Below, piece after piece: positions 23,553 through 53,280 of a stretch of DNA of 53,280 nt; the first letter of the stretch is position 1, and every line of letters begins with the position of its first letter. Where the stretch lies: assembly GCA_017629145.1 (NCBI GenBank), contig JAGBXR010000010.1, positions 1-53,280 on the forward strand, in the 5' to 3' direction. Both the position numbers and the translations under genes were made by a program. The notes under the pieces are model-generated. The model did no database searches. It had not been told where the DNA came from and saw nothing but the letters and a program-made list of their open reading frames with translations. The DNA is from Alistipes sp. Lineage in GTDB: Bacteria; Bacteroidota; Bacteroidia; Bacteroidales; Rikenellaceae.

Positions 23553-23559
23553 CGCTGTG

Positions 23560-23640
23560 TGCCCAGAATAGGACTCGAACCTACACGCCGTTAAGCACTC
23601 GCACCTGAAACGAGCGCGTCTACCATTTCGCCATCTGGGC
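23560..23640 (-). tRNA. tRNA-Leu, anticodon CAG
   Basis: On the reverse strand the gene starts GCCCAGATGGCGAAATGGTA and ends in TTCTGGGCA, giving the acceptor pair GCCCAGA/TCTGGGC. The anticodon stem is CTCGT/GCGAG with loop TTCAGGT (anticodon CAG, codon CUG). The T arm contains GGTTCGAGTCC. A long variable arm identifies a class II tRNA. CCA is not encoded. Confidence 0.93.
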
Positions 23641-24398: not shown

Positions 24399-25307
24399 GT
24401 GATTATCGACGATTTCATACTATGGCTTGAGGCGGAGCGACGCTACTCGCCTCTCACGGTGCGTAACTATCGTCACGACCTCTCCGATTTTCTGGCACAC
24501 TGCAATATTGCGCCCGAAGAGTTCAATCCCACAGCAATCAAACGTAAGCATATAGACGAGTGGATAATGTCGCTCGCTAGTCGCAAGCTCAAGAGCGCAA
24601 CTATTAACCGATATATTGCCACATTACGCACATTCTGGCGTTGGATGCGTTCGCGTGGCCTGATCACAGAAAACATTATGCTTAAGGTGCGCGCGCAGAA
24701 GGCGTCGCGCCGACTTCCTGTATATCTCCCCGATAGCCGTATCGGTGATGTCGTGGAGCGTGTTGCTGCCGATATTGCCTCGGATGATTTCGAGCGTCTG
24801 CGCAATGGACTTGTCATTCTGCTATTCTATACTACGGGACTACGCCTCTCGGAGCTTGTCGAGGCCGACAGAGAGGATGTGGCGGCCGATTTTAGCACGA
24901 TACGTGTGATGGGTAAGGGTGGTAAGGAGCGTATTCAGCCAGTCACTTCGTTGGTAGGTGCGGTGCTAAAAAAGTATTTTATTCAAATATTTTCGCAAAA
25001 TATTTGCACAGATGAAAAAAAAGCATTAATTTTATCTCTGAAAGGCGAGCGTATCAATAGACGAATGGTACAGCGTATAGTCGACAGGGTTCTCAAAGAG
25101 TCTGGAATACAGGGTCGTACATCGCCCCACGTATTACGCCATACCTTTGCGACACATCTGCTCAACTATGGTAGCGACCTTCGAGAGATACAGGAGCTTA
25201 TGGGTCACAGCTCGTTGCGTGCTACGCAGGTCTACACCCATCTCGATATAGTCAAACTCAAAGAGGCATACGCTACGGCGCATCCGCGTGAGCGAGACAA
25301 GAGATGA
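24399..25307 (+). CDS. xerC: Tyrosine recombinase XerC/XerD
   Basis: A 302-residue Xer-type recombinase that resolves chromosome dimers at dif. The N-terminal SAM-like DNA-binding domain occupies about 1-90. The catalytic domain contains TGLRLSELVEA (first Arg), MGKGGKER (Lys), HVLRHTFATHLL (His-x-x-Arg), GHSSLRATQVYTHL (His and nucleophile Tyr). I take the GTG at 24399 as the start, because the frame upstream (from 24360) gives an unlikely Cys-rich peptide. The genomic setting just before hpf is the usual one for the housekeeping enzyme in Bacteroidetes, so it is not evidence of a mobile element. Confidence 0.9.
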   Translation: MIIDDFILWLEAERRYSPLTVRNYRHDLSDFLAHCNIAPEEFNPTAIKRKHIDEWIMSLASRKLKSATINRYIATLRTFWRWMRSRGLITENIMLKVRAQKASRRLPVYLPDSRIGDVVERVAADIASDDFERLRNGLVILLFYTTGLRLSELVEADREDVAADFSTIRVMGKGGKERIQPVTSLVGAVLKKYFIQIFSQNICTDEKKALILSLKGERINRRMVQRIVDRVLKESGIQGRTSPHVLRHTFATHLLNYGSDLREIQELMGHSSLRATQVYTHLDIVKLKEAYATAHPRERDKR

Positions 25308-46560: not shown

Positions 46561-46583
46561 ACTAACATCGAAATAGGGTGGAA

Positions 46584-47237
46584 ATGATTAAGCCTAAAGT
46601 GATTATCTTCGATTTCGATGGTACACTATGCGATACACGCCACAATATTATTGTGGCGTTTCGCGCTACTATGGAGCGCCTTGGTCTCGATATGCGTGAC
46701 GAGGCTACGTGTGGCGCAACTATTGGACTCACACTGCGCGATGGCTTCCGAAGTATGTATCCTGCGCTTGATGATGAGGCTATAGACAACTGCGTCGAGA
46801 CCTATCGTCAGATATTTGCCGAGCGCCGAGAGGAGCTTATGCCCGACCTGTTTCCGTGTGTTGCCGCTACTCTCGAGGAGCTGCACCGCCGAGGCTACAG
46901 ATTTACTATCGCCTCATCGCGCTTGACAGATTCGCTGATGCTCTTTATGCGTGCGCACGCCATCGACCACTATTTCGAGTATGTCGTATGCTCGGATAGT
47001 GTCGTATGTCATAAGCCTCATCCCGAGCCGGTGCTTAATACCCTCGAGAAGCTCAATATTAGTCCCTCTGAAGCCTTTGTAGTGGGCGATATGCCCGTAG
47101 ATATAGCAATGGCTCACGGTGCTGGTGTAGCGGCTTGTGGCGTGACATATGGAAATGCTACGCGTGAGGAGTTGGAGGCGGCAGATGCAGAGTATGTATT
47201 CGACTCGTTCGAAAGACTGCTTGAGATATTGCCATAG
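46584..47237 (+). CDS. HAD-superfamily phosphatase (phosphoglycolate phosphatase-like)
   Basis: A 217-residue cytoplasmic HAD hydrolase. Motif I is IFDFDGTLCDT with the nucleophile Asp, motif II is FTIASSRLTD, motif III includes HKPHPEPV, and motif IV is FVVGDMPVDIAMAHGAG. The alpha-helical cap between motifs I and II is of the C1 (PGP/beta-PGM) type. The substrate is unknown. It begins 23 bp after the PCMD gene and may be the last gene of the surface operon transcript, although its function has no evident link. A GTG at 46578 is an alternative start. Confidence 0.87.
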   Translation: MIKPKVIIFDFDGTLCDTRHNIIVAFRATMERLGLDMRDEATCGATIGLTLRDGFRSMYPALDDEAIDNCVETYRQIFAERREELMPDLFPCVAATLEELHRRGYRFTIASSRLTDSLMLFMRAHAIDHYFEYVVCSDSVVCHKPHPEPVLNTLEKLNISPSEAFVVGDMPVDIAMAHGAGVAACGVTYGNATREELEAADAEYVFDSFERLLEILP

Positions 47238-47315: not shown

Positions 47316-48485
47316 CTACAACCTCTCGAGTAGTGATGCTATAATCACACCGAACTGGTTGCCTAAAGCATAACCTACGATGCCAGCACCGAGACCTACG
47401 ATAAGCGTTCTCTTGTTCTTGAGTACAGCAACCATCATTGGTACAAATGGTGGTGAGTTGATGAACGATACCGACGATACGGTCATAGAGTCGGCATCGA
47501 CACGCATCACGCGGCAGAAGATGGAGTGAAGCAGCAACGAGCCAAATACGGTTATCGTGAGGAAGAGTATCTGATTGAGTCCATCGGCAAGTCGTAGCTC
47601 TGAGAAGTCGGCCATCGATGCCATCGCGATACTGAAGATGTAGATCAGGTACATACCTATATCAAAGCTGCGCTCCAATTTGCGTACAGGTTTGAAGAAG
47701 GCGAAGAGTACGCCCAGGACGCTGATCATAAGGATGAATATCACCATAAACCACTCCTGGTCGAAAGGCAGGGTAGTGGCCGCCGCGAGTGCAATGACCA
47801 CAAAAGAGAATCCCAAAATCTTTGCCAACTCCTTCAGTCCGTCCTTGCTCCATAGACCTTCGTATGGGTTGCGCTTGGCTTCAGCAATCTGCGCTTCGAG
47901 CTCGACTCTTTCGCTGTCGGTTAGCGTTGCCTGGACCTTTTCTCCGTAGAGGCGGCGGAACATCTTGTAGCCTACCGATACGAGGAATACGAGGTACAGG
48001 AACGAGATTACGATATCATACGAGCACATCATAATGTAGTTCTGCTCCTCGACTCTGAATATCGCCTGTATAGCTGCTGCGTTGAGCATACCTCCGGTGT
48101 ACATTCCAGCCATAATGCCTCCTATCTTGTCGCCCTCGGGGATATGCTTGCCGTAGAGCACATATCCCACAGCTACGGCAATGGCAACCGATAGGAATCC
48201 GCTGATTACCACCTTGAGTTGTGTGCTTGCATCGCTACGTGTGAAGCGACAACAGAAGAGCATCATAGGTATAGCAAGCGGAATCGATGCGCTTGTGGCA
48301 ATCTCCTGTACAAGAGCCATCTCGGGAATGTCGAGCGGCATATTTCCGATGAGCATACCCAAGGCGTAGAGGATCATCATTGGACCAATGTTGTCGAGCA
48401 ACGGAAAACGACGACATAGCCATATCACGCCAGCCGGCGCAAGACAAAATATAGCACCTATTATCACGTAGTTTATTATCGACAT
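47316..48485 (-). CDS. DUF819-family membrane protein
   Basis: A 389-residue inner-membrane protein with about ten hydrophobic segments. It matches the DUF819 (YjcL-like) family, probable transporters: a repeated half-structure, IGGIMAGMYTGGMLNAAAI in the first half and MTVSSVSFINSPPFVPMM in the second. A soluble loop of about 45 residues (CSYD to KDGLKELAK region) lies in between. The substrate is unknown. I start at ATG 48485 (MSIINYVIIG); an in-frame ATG at 48497 would add four residues. Confidence 0.78.
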   Translation of the reverse strand: MSIINYVIIGAIFCLAPAGVIWLCRRFPLLDNIGPMMILYALGMLIGNMPLDIPEMALVQEIATSASIPLAIPMMLFCCRFTRSDASTQLKVVISGFLSVAIAVAVGYVLYGKHIPEGDKIGGIMAGMYTGGMLNAAAIQAIFRVEEQNYIMMCSYDIVISFLYLVFLVSVGYKMFRRLYGEKVQATLTDSERVELEAQIAEAKRNPYEGLWSKDGLKELAKILGFSFVVIALAAATTLPFDQEWFMVIFILMISVLGVLFAFFKPVRKLERSFDIGMYLIYIFSIAMASMADFSELRLADGLNQILFLTITVFGSLLLHSIFCRVMRVDADSMTVSSVSFINSPPFVPMMVAVLKNKRTLIVGLGAGIVGYALGNQFGVIIASLLERL

Positions 48486-48906
48486 AGCAATCAGCATTTA
48501 AAATACGAACAAAGATAGTTGTTTTCTCTTGAAATGCGCACAATGATCCCAATTAATTTGCCTTGCGTTATATGTATCCTAATCTATATGTAATAAAATC
48601 GAAATTCATATTATGCTTTATACATTTAATATAATATCACATAATAGAGGATTTATTTTGATAATATTAGCATTATTTACACTTAACAGACCCCTTCCCC
48701 GCAAAGAGTTGAATCTCTTGTTAGAAGAGGTTAGGCTTGGTCTCGACATAAAAAAAGCCCGATTGAGGAGCGTGAGAAGTTTTTGGTTTTAGAGGAGCAG
48801 ATTTGGTTTATCACAAAAGAAGAGTCCGGGGGATAGTAGTTTAATCTACAGCCCTCGGACTCTTACTTTTAGGGATAGGACGAAGATGCCCTATACAAAT
48901 CGAAAA
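48486..48906. other. Gene-free AT-rich stretch left of the first repeat copy
   Basis: About 420 bp with no supported gene. It contains a strong hairpin (48820-48867) and no recognisable transposase or RNA. A short open frame around 48650-48795 has no recognised family. Confidence 0.5.
48820..48867 (-). terminator. Hairpin downstream of the first GGGtGRT fragment
   Basis: AAGAGTCCG and CGGACTCTT, with inner GGG/CCC pairing, flank an AT-rich loop. It lies on the 3' side of the gene fragment at 48907-49008, where the terminator of the original gene would be expected. Confidence 0.6.
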
Positions 48907-49008
48907 TTAGTTCATTGCCTGCTGGATAGCTACTGCAATAGCAACTGTTGCACCTACCATTGGGTTGTTACCCATACCCAAGAAGCCCATCATCTCAACG
49001 TGTGCTGG
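48907..49008 (-). pseudogene. 3' end fragment of a GGGtGRT-family gene, copy 1
   Basis: On the reverse strand the last 33 codons and the TAA stop of a GGGtGRT-family gene remain, reading PAHVEMMGFLGMGNNPMVGA and ending IQQAMN. This is the C-terminus of that family as I remember it. Upstream (from 49009) the similarity stops abruptly and no start codon or remaining body exists. A copy of the same 102 bp lies at 51991-52092. Only three bases differ between the copies, and all three are synonymous. Confidence 0.75.
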
Positions 49009-49105
49009 TAGTGAATAAGACACCGAAAGCTATGCGTTAATAGCTTATCGTATGTAATACAATCAAATGGCTATATAGTTATAGTAGGCCACCCTCTCTT
49101 TAACC

Positions 49106-49936
49106 TTAGTTATCTTCCATTAGCTTGTCGATGAGTCTATCGACTCTTTCACCACGTCGCTGTATCTCCTCTATAAGCTTGGAGTTAGTTGCCAGAAACT
49201 GATCAATCTGTTCATCCTTCTTTTGGCGCACTGCCTCCATCTGCGAGTACGACGAGGTGAAATTCTTGCGGAAGATACCAATGATATTAGCAGCACTAAA
49301 TTGGTCTGTTGCTAAGTTGAGTACGATATCTCCATATTTAGGATTACGCGCATGGAGTGTCATCTTATCTCCATCAATATAGACATCACGTATCACGCCC
49401 GCATAGGCGGGAGTGTCAATAAAATAGATAGCTCCGCTATGCAACTTTGCTGTCTTAGGCAGAAATTTGAGAAAAACAATATCGCCCTGAGCTATATCTG
49501 GCGACATAGAGTCTTTTAGTATCTCCATAGCAAACTCCGCACCTTCGACAAGTGAGCGTGGGTCGATAGAGGCTAACTCCGAGCCATTGTTTTGAACATA
49601 TTTGCAAATATCCAAATTGCGACGATTTATAATCTCGTCAGGTAGCACAGGAATACTATTCTCATCCTTAGCTGTAAATCTGGCATTGTCAGCGTCAATA
49701 GACTCCACCTCTACCACAGAATCATTAGCATGCACCACTTGATGCTCGCCAGATATTCTATATTTAGATATTACCTCTTCGCCAAAATACTCAATCAATC
49801 CATCAATATGTTTACGAAGTATTCGGCGATTGGCATTGGCAATCTGTGATACCTCTGATTGAGATGTATTCATTATCTCGGCCAACTTCCTCTGAGATAA
49901 TGATTTATCGAACATTAACGCCTTGATATCGATCAT
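49106..49936 (-). CDS. LexA/cI-like S24-family repressor with C-terminal coiled coil
   Basis: A 276-residue regulator. The helix-turn-helix is SQRKLAEIMNTSQSEVSQIA (13-32). The S24 fold occupies about 125-215, with the catalytic-type Ser143 in KDSMSPDIAQGD. The position of the catalytic lysine, aligned on the following G-D/N-K motif of LexA, is occupied by Arg183 (GVIRDVY), so self-cleavage is doubtful. The last 35 residues are charged and helical (RRGERVDRLIDKLMED), probably a coiled coil. It is divergent from the sigma-54 activator gene, with 262 bp between. Confidence 0.8.
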   Translation of the reverse strand: MIDIKALMFDKSLSQRKLAEIMNTSQSEVSQIANANRRILRKHIDGLIEYFGEEVISKYRISGEHQVVHANDSVVEVESIDADNARFTAKDENSIPVLPDEIINRRNLDICKYVQNNGSELASIDPRSLVEGAEFAMEILKDSMSPDIAQGDIVFLKFLPKTAKLHSGAIYFIDTPAYAGVIRDVYIDGDKMTLHARNPKYGDIVLNLATDQFSAANIIGIFRKNFTSSYSQMEAVRQKKDEQIDQFLATNSKLIEEIQRRGERVDRLIDKLMEDN

Positions 49937-50198
49937 AGTATAATTGATTTTTATTGACTATTGCTATATTTATGAAAAAAATTATCAAATATAATTGAAA
50001 ATAATTGATATAATATTTGCAAATTGTTTTCAATATCGTAACTTTGTCCCAGCAAATTACAATTAGACGTAGCAAAATTACAAAATAAAATTGAAAATTG
50101 CAAATATTTTACAATAGTCAATCAATAATTTAATCTATAGTGCAATTCATAGAATGACGCAGTATATAAATATGTATAACCACTTACAACAGTAGACT
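49937..50198. promoter_or_regulatory. Divergent control region with symmetric repeat elements
   Basis: AT-rich region between the repressor and the activator genes. A reverse -7 box (TATATTTG, 49986-49993) and a forward -7 box (TAACTTTG, 50039-50046) point outward. Two dyads surround them: TTGACTATTG/CAATAGTCAA (49954-49963 and 50112-50121) and an AATATTTGCAA...TTTTCAAT element (50012-50034) repeated inverted at 50090-50108. The core ATTGAAAAT occurs a third time at 49995. Confidence 0.6.
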
Positions 50199-51329
50199 AT
50201 GACAAAGATTTTGTTACTATCTCCCTCAAGAGGGATGCTCAATTCATTGCGAGAGCGCCTTAATTTTGAGAACATCGCTACTGCTGAGGCTGACAATCTG
50301 CCACAAGCCAAAAGCCTATGCTGCACAGATGAATTCGATGCAGCTGTTGTGGATAGCGAGCTACTATCGGAGGATATAAAGATACCCTCTATTGTCATTG
50401 CGCATACACCAAATGTGGAGTCGGCTGTTGCTGCACTTCGTCTTGGAGCAATCGACTATCTCTCTGCACCAATAGATATGAATCGACTACTCACATCGCT
50501 TCGTAATATCTCGCACGATAATGGTGATAGTAACGCTTGTGGTCATCGCCACGTTTCAAAAAAATGTAACCTTGTAACACAGCCTATACTCGGCATCTCT
50601 GATGCCATTGAGCGTGTGCGTAAGATGATATGGCGAGTAGCTCCCTCCGATGCTCGAGTGCTAATCCTTGGCGAGAATGGTACGGGCAAGGAGCTTGTCG
50701 CTCAATGGTTACACCTAAAGAGCAATCGTGCTAATGGTCCATTTGTCGAGGTAAACTGCGCTGCAATTCCCTCGGAGCTAATTGAGAGTGAGCTTTTTGG
50801 ACACGAGAAGGGATCGTTTACGTCTGCTGTAAAACAGCGCAAAGGAAAATTCGAGCTTGCAGATGGAGGTACTCTCTTTCTCGACGAGGTAGGAGATATG
50901 TCGCTGTCGGCACAAGCTAAGGTGCTTCGTGCGTTGCAGGAGAATAAGATTATGCGTATTGGTGGTGATAGGGATATTCCCGTGAATGTGCGTGTTGTTG
51001 CCGCAACAAATAAGGATTTACGCAAGGAGATTCGTCTTGGTAATTTTCGTGAGGATCTATACCATCGCCTAAGTGTGATCGAGATCAATGTTCCGCCATT
51101 GCGTGAGCGTTGTGGCGATATTCAGCTGCTGGTAGAGCACTTCATATCGGAGATATGTGCCCGCCATAAGATAAGCATCAAGAATATCGATACCGAGGCT
51201 CTCGAACTTCTTTCGCATTGTGCATGGACTGGTAATATTCGAGAATTGCACAATGTCGTCGAACGACTGATAATCTTAAGTGATGATCGCATCACTGCTG
51301 ACGCAGTGCAATGCTACTACAATGCTTAA
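50199..51329 (+). CDS. Sigma-54 activator with degenerate receiver and no DNA-binding domain
   Basis: A 376-residue NtrC-like protein. The N-terminal 110 residues form a receiver-like domain. It keeps a possible Asp52 but lacks the acidic pair after the first strand (ILLLSPSRG) and the conserved Lys (LSAPID), so normal phosphorylation is unlikely. The AAA+ domain is complete: Walker A GENGTGKE (158-165), the sigma-54-contacting loop GSFTSA (205-210, usually GAFTGA), Walker B GGTLFLDEVG, and the arginine-finger segment FREDLYHRLSV. The protein ends in ILSDDRITADAVQCYYNA with no Fis-type helix-turn-helix, so it must act from solution or through a partner. Confidence 0.85.
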   Translation: MTKILLLSPSRGMLNSLRERLNFENIATAEADNLPQAKSLCCTDEFDAAVVDSELLSEDIKIPSIVIAHTPNVESAVAALRLGAIDYLSAPIDMNRLLTSLRNISHDNGDSNACGHRHVSKKCNLVTQPILGISDAIERVRKMIWRVAPSDARVLILGENGTGKELVAQWLHLKSNRANGPFVEVNCAAIPSELIESELFGHEKGSFTSAVKQRKGKFELADGGTLFLDEVGDMSLSAQAKVLRALQENKIMRIGGDRDIPVNVRVVAATNKDLRKEIRLGNFREDLYHRLSVIEINVPPLRERCGDIQLLVEHFISEICARHKISIKNIDTEALELLSHCAWTGNIRELHNVVERLIILSDDRITADAVQCYYNA

Positions 51330-51381
51330 CGTTCTCAGCTACTTATATATATAAAGTAATTAACCTCAAAATTAATAGTAT

Positions 51382-51897
51382 ATGAAAGATCTATTTACCT
51401 TGAACAGAGATTTGTGGAACAGACTTACCTTAAGTGACACCACATTGTTATCTGAGGCTACGCTGCAGAAGCTTATCGCACTCTCGGACTACCTTGAAAA
51501 TGAGGTGCAAAGCGAGTATCATCTATCTAATGAGCTGACAACAGATGTCAGAATGTTATTCACTAAGAAGGTTTGGCACAGTAGGGATGAGGAGGATTTC
51601 GAACTATCCATTGAGGTTATGTTGGGACTACTTGTGGAATCTATCGAATCAGAGTGTCGCAGGTATGGTTACTCAGAGGAGGAGGTTGTGTCGATGACTC
51701 TAAACTTTAAGGATCTTATATGTTGTGTTCCCGAGTCCTTCAGGGCACACGAGTCGAAGATCCGTGCGATAGTTATTCGCTCCTACATAATCGATAAATT
51801 CTTGGAGATGGGATGTCCCGAAGCGTTTGTATATCAGATTGTCCCTTCTCAGAAGGAGATAGAGCGTCGATTGATGATTGATATCTTGGAGAGCTGA
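51382..51897 (+). CDS. Unknown acidic helical protein
   Basis: A 171-residue protein with no recognised domain, predicted to be mostly alpha-helical and acidic (SIEVMLGLLVESIESECRRY, IRAIVIRSYIIDKFLEMGC). There is no signal peptide or membrane segment. It starts 52 bp after the sigma-54 activator gene on the same strand and is probably co-transcribed, so a role in the same regulatory module is likely by context only. Confidence 0.65.
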   Translation: MKDLFTLNRDLWNRLTLSDTTLLSEATLQKLIALSDYLENEVQSEYHLSNELTTDVRMLFTKKVWHSRDEEDFELSIEVMLGLLVESIESECRRYGYSEEEVVSMTLNFKDLICCVPESFRAHESKIRAIVIRSYIIDKFLEMGCPEAFVYQIVPSQKEIERRLMIDILES

Positions 51898-51933
51898 TAT
51901 GTTAGATTTACGCACAGTGTAACACCACAAAAC

Positions 51934-51965
51934 AAAAGGAGCAAACCCGAAGGTCTGCTCCTTTC
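51934..51965. terminator. Terminator between the helical-protein gene and the second fragment
   Basis: AAAGGAGCA and TGCTCCTTT form a stem, with an inner ACC/GGT pair around a short loop. It lies between converging sequences, at the same relative place as the hairpin beyond copy 1, although the two hairpins differ in sequence. Confidence 0.65.
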
Positions 51966-51990
51966 AATATATTATAAACCAATCTGTTGA

Positions 51991-52092
51991 TTAGTTCATT
52001 GCCTGCTGGATAGCTACTGCAATAGCAACAGTTGCACCTACCATAGGGTTGTTACCCATACCCAAGAAGCCCATCATCTCTACGTGTGCTGG
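51991..52092 (-). pseudogene. 3' end fragment of a GGGtGRT-family gene, copy 2
   Basis: On the reverse strand the same 33 codons plus TAA as copy 1 (48907-49008). It differs only at a Thr, a Pro and a Val codon, each in the third base. Similarity to the family may extend slightly further upstream here (LSSAPAHVEMM), then ends. The frame continues to 52197 but the added part is not convincing protein. No body of the gene is present to the right inside the window. Confidence 0.75.
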
Positions 52093-52331
52093 AGCCGACG
52101 ACAAACCGAGAGCAGAGACTGCTTGCAGGCTATGCCGAGGTGCGAAGGAGGAAAAGACGATACGAATTAACTGATGAAGAACCTGCAAACTGTGCATCAG
52201 AGTGCATACGACCTATAGCGAGATGACTAATACTATATACACCAAGAGGTACTTAAAACTCAGTGAATACCTTAATGATATTAAATAATGTAAAAATTTA
52301 TTTAGAAAGCAAAAGTCTATTTACTTTTTTG

Positions 52332-52380: not shown

Positions 52381-52719
52381 ATGAAAAACTTGTATCAAAT
52401 TGAAGATTTATTTCCTGTAGCTAAGGGCTCAGAAAAACTCTTGCTATTGATAAGAGATAAAGATATTGATAATCCAGAATGTTTGGCGGTGCAAGTAGAT
52501 TTATCAAGTAGGACTTATTATATTGATTTGATTCAGCGATTTTTGAAATTTGGCAACTACGAGGAGATAGAGCGGGATGCTATACTTATTGAGCATTACA
52601 GATATAAAGTAGATAGTGCAATGCCTGATGAGGTGTTGGTTGATATGGTGGTGAACTTTACTAAAGAGATAGAAAAGTGGAGCCAATTAGAGAATAAGTT
52701 TGATTACGGATATGTTTAA
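52381..52719 (+). CDS. Small protein of unknown function
   Basis: A 112-residue acidic cytoplasmic-looking protein beginning MKNLYQIEDLFPVAKGSEKL. It mixes beta (AVQVDLSSRTYYIDLIQRFL) and helical (VDMVVNFTKEIEKWSQLENK) segments. No family recognised. The codons are more AT-rich than in the rest of the window, which suggests acquired DNA. The next gene follows within 25 bp. Confidence 0.6.
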   Translation: MKNLYQIEDLFPVAKGSEKLLLLIRDKDIDNPECLAVQVDLSSRTYYIDLIQRFLKFGNYEEIERDAILIEHYRYKVDSAMPDEVLVDMVVNFTKEIEKWSQLENKFDYGYV

Positions 52720-52744: not shown

Positions 52745-53044
52745 ATGACACGAGAAGAGTATGAAGATAAATACTGGAGTTTGACAGATGAGAAATGGGA
52801 TGAACTTGTTAAGGAAGGTCTTGTTCCAGATAAAGCCCCTGGGGAATGTGTGTACTTGGGCTATGACAAGACAAAGACATCTTGGAAGAAGTTCGAGGAG
52901 TTGATGAAAAGGTCTCCCAAAGTGGATGGTAGTGCTTTTAGTGATGATGAGATTATATTCTTGGGTAATATGGATCTTGTTGCCTTTGGAAATAAGTTTC
53001 GTTATGAGGCAGAAGTTTACATGGAAGATTTAACAATTTTATAA
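52745..53044 (+). CDS. Small acidic protein of unknown function
   Basis: A 99-residue strongly acidic protein (MTREEYEDKYWSLTDEKWDE...), compact and without signal peptide. Its size, charge and clustering with orphan genes resemble immunity or antidote proteins, but no homology supports this. It lies 25 bp after the previous gene and 14 bp before the next, so the three are probably one transcript. Confidence 0.6.
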   Translation: MTREEYEDKYWSLTDEKWDELVKEGLVPDKAPGECVYLGYDKTKTSWKKFEELMKRSPKVDGSAFSDDEIIFLGNMDLVAFGNKFRYEAEVYMEDLTIL

Positions 53045-53058
53045 AAAAATATTGTGGT

Positions 53059-53280
53059 ATGATCTCTAGCAAGATGATGATTGAAGCAATGGATAAGCTC
53101 GCTAAATGGCGCAAACTGTTTTGGTCGGAAGCGGACTTTCAATTCTCCTTAGCTCAAGTATTGTGCGATATGCTAAAGGAAAAGGATGCTAAAGCTCAAA
53201 TATTCCTAGAGCGACCTATTCCAACGGTAACGGATGACACGAAAGTTAAAAGGAGAAATAGATATATAGATATTCTAATC
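53059..53280 (+). CDS. Unknown protein, possibly nuclease-like (cut by window edge)
   Basis: The first 74 codons of an open frame from the ATG at 53059 that runs off the window. The part seen has a helical start (MIEAMDKLAKWRKLFWSEAD), then FSLAQVLCDML, a glutamate in FLERPIP, and RRNRYIDILI. A Glu in an early helix followed by a hydrophobic strand with Asp is the pattern of PD-(D/E)XK nucleases, but the E-x-K part would be outside the window. Treat the function as unknown. Confidence 0.5.
   Translation, partial: MISSKMMIEAMDKLAKWRKLFWSEADFQFSLAQVLCDMLKEKDAKAQIFLERPIPTVTDDTKVKRRNRYIDILI

Follow-up and report, generated by a model that had tools for sequence, protein, structure and literature searches.

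In Streptococcus, fda is a site at which integrative elements accrete, and the Bacteroidales element NBU1 integrates at a tRNA gene. Tandem accretion of ICEs and IMEs in Streptococcus, as described in PMC5704250, resembles the arrangement reported here in that elements stack at the end of one target gene, the next element enters the att site holding the gene end, and decayed elements devoid of integration genes (CIMEs), which arise by loss of those genes, remain between att sites; the host order, target gene and integrase family differ from those of the GGGtGRT array. Gene-restoring genomic islands are alike in that the 3′ end borne by the element keeps the gene intact (PMC12884075), whereas the GGGtGRT array holds several stacked modules, most of them without an integrase, and GGGtGRT was not found in print as a target. 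The Bacteroidales IMEs NBU1 and Tn4555, set beside the array by description, likewise have site-specific tyrosine integrases in Bacteroidetes (PMC5704250), but other integration sites. Stacked elements at a gene end are thus a kind of system already known. A literature search returned no report of the GGGtGRT site or of its integrase family; most subscription papers lay outside its coverage, so the evidence for novelty is weak.

The window analysed here is a stretch of 53,280 nucleotides from an Alistipes sp. genome (GCA_017629145.1, contig JAGBXR010000010.1). In its right-hand part, integrated elements very probably stand in tandem at a single attachment site that lies within the 3′ end of the GGGtGRT gene. 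The best reading is that CIME-like elements, which lack an integrase, have accreted one behind another at an attachment site of Bacteroidales that is served by its own integrase family. The features, with the two modules called M1 and M2, are as follows.

46578..47237, plus strand: presumed HAD-type phosphatase gene, directly after GGGtGRT in relatives without inserts
47316..48497, minus strand: DUF819 membrane protein gene, in a variable stretch outside the empty site
48907..49008, minus strand: copy 1, displaced GGGtGRT 3′ end (33 codons plus stop), with its break near site B
49009..49105, no strand: M2 left arm adjoining copy 1, recurring in genomes G108, G113 and G121
49106..49936, minus strand: M2, helix-turn-helix/peptidase S24 protein, 276 aa (Pfam PF00717, E = 7.7e-11)
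50199..51329, plus strand: M2, sigma-54 activator AAA+ protein, 376 aa (Pfam PF00158, E = 4.6e-70)
51382..51897, plus strand: M2, 171-aa protein with no assigned family, in 6 of 180 genomes of the genus
51898..51990, no strand: terminator-like stretch after copy 2, of a class that adjoins the intact gene in other genomes
51991..52092, minus strand: copy 2, displaced GGGtGRT 3′ end (33 codons plus stop), by Pfam and repeat match
52093..52168, no strand: insert (about 76 bp) separating copy 2 from a decayed body piece
52169..52219, minus strand: decayed GGGtGRT body piece (approximately codons 284-302), whose start lies in the site A spacer
52381..52719, plus strand: M1, 112-aa protein with no Pfam match
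52745..53044, plus strand: M1, 99-aa protein with no Pfam match
53059..53280, plus strand: M1, start of a 234-aa ORF that runs on to C15:624, the C15 part having no Pfam match

The direct repeats, at 48906-49008 and 51990-52092, are 103 nt long, 97% identical and spaced by 3084 bp. On the reverse strand both encode PAHVEMMGFLGMGNNPMVGATVAIAVAIQQAMN followed by a stop codon, which are the last 33 codons of the GGGtGRT protein, and the ORF containing copy 2 matches the Pfam GGGtGRT family (E = 3.7e-16). An earlier, sequence-only reading had described two 102-bp copies with only three differences, all of them synonymous, and the repeats are present as it described them. Its observation is nevertheless only partly confirmed: the claim that no gene body accompanies either copy fails at copy 2, where a decayed piece of the GGGtGRT body lies at about 52169-52219, past the insert of about 76 bp, and the sharp limits that it reported hold for the clean edge of copy 1 but not for copy 2, with the decayed piece nearby. 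This piece corresponds to PF14057 positions 280-298. The insert itself also occurs in G094 (contig C8), G098 and G100, and at 84% identity in G117; it is followed by at least three different terminator classes, while three different sequences precede the body piece, and it may be either a dispersed repeat or the end of an element. Weaker matches to it were also seen in loci L074, L091 and L100.

The own genome, a draft of 1.62 Mb in 49 contigs that is 76% complete, was searched for a third copy, which proved to be the 3′ end of an intact GGGtGRT gene of 332 codons on the minus strand of contig C15, ending at C15:804 and preceded upstream by a 230-aa gene. Overlaps between neighbouring contigs are a trace left by some assemblers, and the first 141 bases of C15 are the last 141 of the window, with a 234-aa ORF reading across the overlap. 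From the overlap, the reading frame and the gene order in relatives, we infer that C15 follows the window, which would place the intact gene 1.85 kb beyond copy 2 and give the array the order gene / M1 / copy 2 / M2 / copy 1 / DUF819 / HAD. The earlier expectation of an intact gene to the right of the window, with a second module between, was thereby borne out, the joint being drawn from the 141-base overlap. Copy 1 differs from the intact end at four bases and copy 2 at five; these include a two-base difference between the leucine codons TTG and CTC, one step of which our script scores as nonsynonymous though the residue is unchanged.

Neither module carries a recognizable means of integration. 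Direct copies of the end flank both M2 (copy 2 and copy 1) and M1 (the intact gene and copy 2), with breaks near sites A and B (see below), and these are putative att sites; as expected of CIMEs, the Pfam results for the M1 and M2 proteins contain neither a recombinase nor a transfer-gene match. No tyrosine recombinase (PF00589) was found in M1, M2 or C15:1-804, in a genome that is 76% complete, and its two PF00589 matches both lie outside the modules. The window modules therefore lack the integrase of their own that would mark an autonomous integrative element, and with no PF00589 match in them or in C15:1-804 of this incomplete draft, the array does not have the look of an integron either; the modules are separated by coding 3′ ends that carry terminators. 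No Pfam family scored above the cut-off for four of the six proteins of M1 and M2. The sigma-54 activator of M2 has a receiver-like N-terminus (PF00072, E = 7.1e-6, under the Pfam cut-off). The genomes with the 171-aa gene of M2 have it on contigs with GGGtGRT ends, the exception being a partial copy at a contig end in G110, and the search did not recover it from G108, G113 or G117, the contig there beginning inside the S24 gene. Across the other 179 genomes of the genus, nothing matched the large ORF of M1 at more than 40% identity. We do not claim a defence role for this cargo; the PADLOC match of the sigma-54 protein is confined to its AAA region and those of the S24 protein are weak.

A PF14057 profile search found the gene in 94 of 180 genomes of the genus. 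In three of these (G075, G064 and G084) the HAD gene lies directly after GGGtGRT, and in G129 a single 78-aa ORF comes between; the HAD-type phosphatase is our assignment, made from the sequence rather than by domain scan. An uninterrupted gene in relatives was therefore found as foreseen, although the junction is GGGtGRT-HAD and not GGGtGRT-DUF819, DUF819 having turned up at the examined loci of just two genomes. G108 has, in order, the S24 gene of M2 (inside which the contig starts), a displaced end, a terminator of the G075 type and HAD, and its sequence reads as an occupied site next to its empty form. G108, G113 and G121 also have the M2 left arm (98 nt, 49009-49106), at 93-95% identity. 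Different cargo lies between the ends in different genomes, intact genes accompany the fragments, and the order and neighbours of fragments and modules vary, so that neither fragments without an intact gene nor fragments at fixed places were seen. The sequence-only interpretation, repeated use of the GGGtGRT 3′ end as an attachment site, is thus supported. In the other genera of the family, 15 genomes gave a PF14057 match, one each, and no second end was therefore seen there; for other families, the evidence on use of the site comes from the integrase search described below.

The sequences that follow the gene tell a similar story. We sorted the 45 nt after each stop codon into terminator classes by eye, and found that those after the intact gene in G000 are the same as those after a displaced end in G042, where the class at the intact genes of G110 and G067 is also displaced. 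The class following copy 2 stands beside the gene in G040 (the gene being cut by the contig end), G088, G098, G100, G112 and G123. The same M2/copy 1 junction is followed by two classes, that of copy 1 in G000 and G121 and the empty-site type in G108 and, less exactly, in G113. Units of end plus terminator are therefore intact in some genomes and displaced in others, and fragments fixed by descent would not be expected to give such shuffled orders.

The earlier proposal that the donor ends were each selected as coding sequence draws little from the three synonymous changes alone, but fares better on a wider comparison. Twenty displaced ends, each set against its nearest intact gene, gave 48 synonymous to 49 nonsynonymous changes; the decayed ends of G098 and G100 account for 10:38, and the remaining 18 gave 38:11, which supports the proposal. 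Intact GGGtGRT genes compared among themselves gave 334:83, and random changes would be expected to be 23% synonymous.

Fifteen genomes with two ends on one contig were chosen, giving 16 intervals between ends. An integrase is whole in two of these (G037 and G101) and truncated in one (G110), and a serine recombinase lies in one more (G089); by ORF clustering, with which divergent enzymes could be missed, the other 12 of the 16 have neither. The whole-genome PF00589 matches agree for the 14 genomes covered, G066, with an interval of 126 bp, being outside that search. The 10-kb element of G037 encodes DUF3871, a winged-helix protein and a second recombinase of 195 aa, and no relaxase was found among the ten proteins submitted to a domain scan that included this element. 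By eye, the ORFs after the integrase in B. salyersiae and B. oleiciplenus resemble those of the G037 element. Other cargo includes genes in G089 that, from their sequence, we take to be sulfatase-like, an ECF sigma factor in G040 and G117 (domain scan of G117 only), and TIR, SIR2-like and nSTAND matches in G110; G067 has a TIR-type PADLOC match.

In G037, G067, G101 and G028, a tyrosine integrase some 400 aa long is encoded directly downstream of the intact GGGtGRT gene; that of G037 has arm-binding, SAM-like and catalytic domains. A profile built from six such integrases and searched in the 180 genomes gave 39 matches at E ≤ 1e-100, of which the seven scoring at least 404 bits all lie beside a GGGtGRT end. 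The other 32 score at most 375 bits and by coordinates none is near a GGGtGRT match, with the proviso that seven of them start within 500 bases of the contig's beginning, so that a neighbour may have been lost. A wider set of 160 loci was assembled from the best 80 of 110 confirmed loci in genome_contigs and the best 80 of 291 in viral_contigs. Within these best 80 of 110 and best 80 of 291, a GGGtGRT 3′ end lies within 1.5 kb at 49 of the 56 loci that match their nearest query at 50% identity or more (43 of 50 once six re-fetched query records are subtracted), compared with none of the 104 loci below 50%; at the seven loci of at least 50% without the end, five integrases begin no more than 2 bp from the start of the locus, that of L144 after 368 bp and that of L181 after 1,449 bp. 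Integrases with such an end occur in records of Bacteroides, Phocaeicola, Parabacteroides, Mediterranea, Dysgonomonadaceae and Cryptobacteroides. In one subfamily (L161, L162, L163, L165, L167 and L228) the integrase sits at the far side, by the displaced copy and pointing away from it, and two IMG/VR contigs have two tandem integrase genes each, the second beside the GGGtGRT end. The integrase that an attachment site would call for is thus found at this 3′ end in relatives but not in the window's own modules.

We found no support for phages or plasmids as vectors of the integrase: 68 phage records match, all below 60% identity, and 69 plasmid records, one at 60-80% and the others below 60%. 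Nor do phages appear to carry the gene end. Five phage-collection records match a 55-aa C-terminal query, but their ORFs show them to be pieces of bacterial chromosome; the gene is whole in two (L298 and L300) and cut by the record start in three, the neighbours are by eye ordinary bacterial genes, and no integrase-like ORF was noticed next to the end.

We defined a break as the point at which a displaced end stops matching its nearest intact gene; six loci repeating other records were omitted beforehand, and of 47 fragments, nine lay too near a contig end, leaving 38 measured. Counted back from the end of the stop codon, and with close relatives among the rows (L226/L227; L051/L052; L053 and L054 with copy 1), 17 of the 38 breaks fall at 159-179 nt, a 21-nt stretch, and nine at 99-125 nt; the remainder comprise two at 90 and 96 nt, a group of eight at 58-81, and single breaks at 147 and 230. 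Site A is marked by the cluster at 159-179 nt and in the intact gene on C15 reads TATGACC-GACACTATG-GGTCGTA, with nearly inverted arms and a 9-nt spacer, a layout like that of a tyrosine recombinase core. The second, site B, lies near GCAGGTTC-TTCATCA-GTACCAGC and is less sharp, being spread over 26 nt. The body piece starts in the site A spacer by copy 2 as well as in G094 and in G098/G100, behind three different preceding sequences, and it therefore seems most likely, as far as sequence can tell, that M1 entered at site A. For copy 1 the break is near site B, a site without a known integrase. Although the integrases of G101 and G037 are 93% identical, the displaced end breaks at 90 nt in the former and at 161 nt in the latter, indicating that later deletion or decay can shift break points.

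The array would have formed as follows. An incoming element would bring its own copy of the last 100-160 bp of the gene with a terminator behind, and a tyrosine recombinase would join it to the gene at a short core; the gene would keep an intact C-terminus from the donor, and the previous end would be displaced to the far side of the insert. Because the core would be present again in the new end, the next element could integrate there, and stacking would yield gene / M1 / copy 2 / M2 / copy 1. The sequences themselves show the repeats, the intact gene, the empty site in relatives, the reordered units, the clustered breaks and an integrase family tied to the end, and site-specific integration of this sort accounts for them jointly. 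M1 and M2 presumably arrived by such integration and, there being no integrase in either, would have lost one or used one in trans, as CIME-like elements. Points against the scheme are that neither module has a tyrosine recombinase gene, that copy 1 breaks at the more diffuse site B, that two integrases of 93% identity go with different breaks, and that the 171-aa gene of M2 did not turn up in G108, G113 or G117.

A more specific proposal, which we regard as possible but doubtful, is that throughout Bacteroidales the 3′ end acts as a dedicated docking site, similar to a cassette array and served by a specific family of tyrosine integrases. Modules of about 1-3 kb (one to three genes with an end copy and terminator, and no recombinase) would then recombine at a second core within that gene end, with enzymes of larger elements moving them in trans. 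Homologous recombination between incoming and resident GGGtGRT ends could also leave duplicates, with no site-specific enzyme for the small modules, and would account for the want of a recombinase gene in the window modules and in 12 of the 16 intervals, for the same cargo behind different terminators and for the spread of breaks at site B; it is, however, an unlikely origin for the array, given that 17 of 38 breaks cluster in 21 nt and that a specific integrase family is located at this very gene end. Exchange of this kind probably contributed to the shuffling all the same. Ancient tandem duplicates of the gene, of which deletion spared just the 3′ ends, might explain the decayed body piece beside copy 2 and the displaced end in G072, which matches deeper into the body (codons 255-331), but are very improbable in view of the different terminators, the unrelated cargo between ends and the same breaks in different genomes. 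An assembly artefact or a mixture of strains in this metagenome-assembled genome, suggested by the 49-contig draft and the contig break inside the array, is hardly credible when both copies lie on one contig and three further genomes share the copy 1 junction at 93-95% identity.

The gene and its partner belong to the iron-dependent stimulon of B. thetaiotaomicron, according to a table in PMC10434189. Tandem accretion at its 3′ end would swap the C-terminus and terminator, so that an effect on expression of the gene can be tested. The results point to an insertion site used repeatedly in gut Bacteroidales and to an integrase family that matches it, both seen in named genomes of Bacteroides, Phocaeicola, Parabacteroides and Mediterranea. 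A mechanical search can then locate and delimit the islands at this site, and integrases of the family might become tools for targeted insertion in these bacteria. The array also shows small, non-autonomous cargo accumulating at a single locus.

One displaced end of the GGGtGRT gene carries an insert of about 76 bp at about codon 300 (window 52093-52168); this insert is also found in four other genomes, ahead of differing terminators, and gives weak matches elsewhere too. In another Alistipes genome (G101, locus L047, 2104-3566), an integrase gene is the sole content of the interval between two ends (1.8 kb).

Three further features of the window are:

23559-23640, tRNA-Leu gene
24786-25247, recombinase match (PF00589)
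50199-51329, sigma-54 activator gene of the accessory module

The recombinase match lies approximately 1.1 kb beyond the tRNA-Leu gene. The activator protein stops after the AAA+ lid, its AAA region is matched by the RtcR_PspF2 model of PADLOC, and no helix-turn-helix was matched in it by Pfam.

The records MT835590, MT836003, MT837192, MT838301 and MT839063 are labelled Bacteriophage sp. and look like pieces of bacterial chromosome. Genome G094 holds three full or near-full GGGtGRT genes and three fragment matches, on contigs C16, C29, C5 and C8, which may reflect real paralogues or a mixture of strains.
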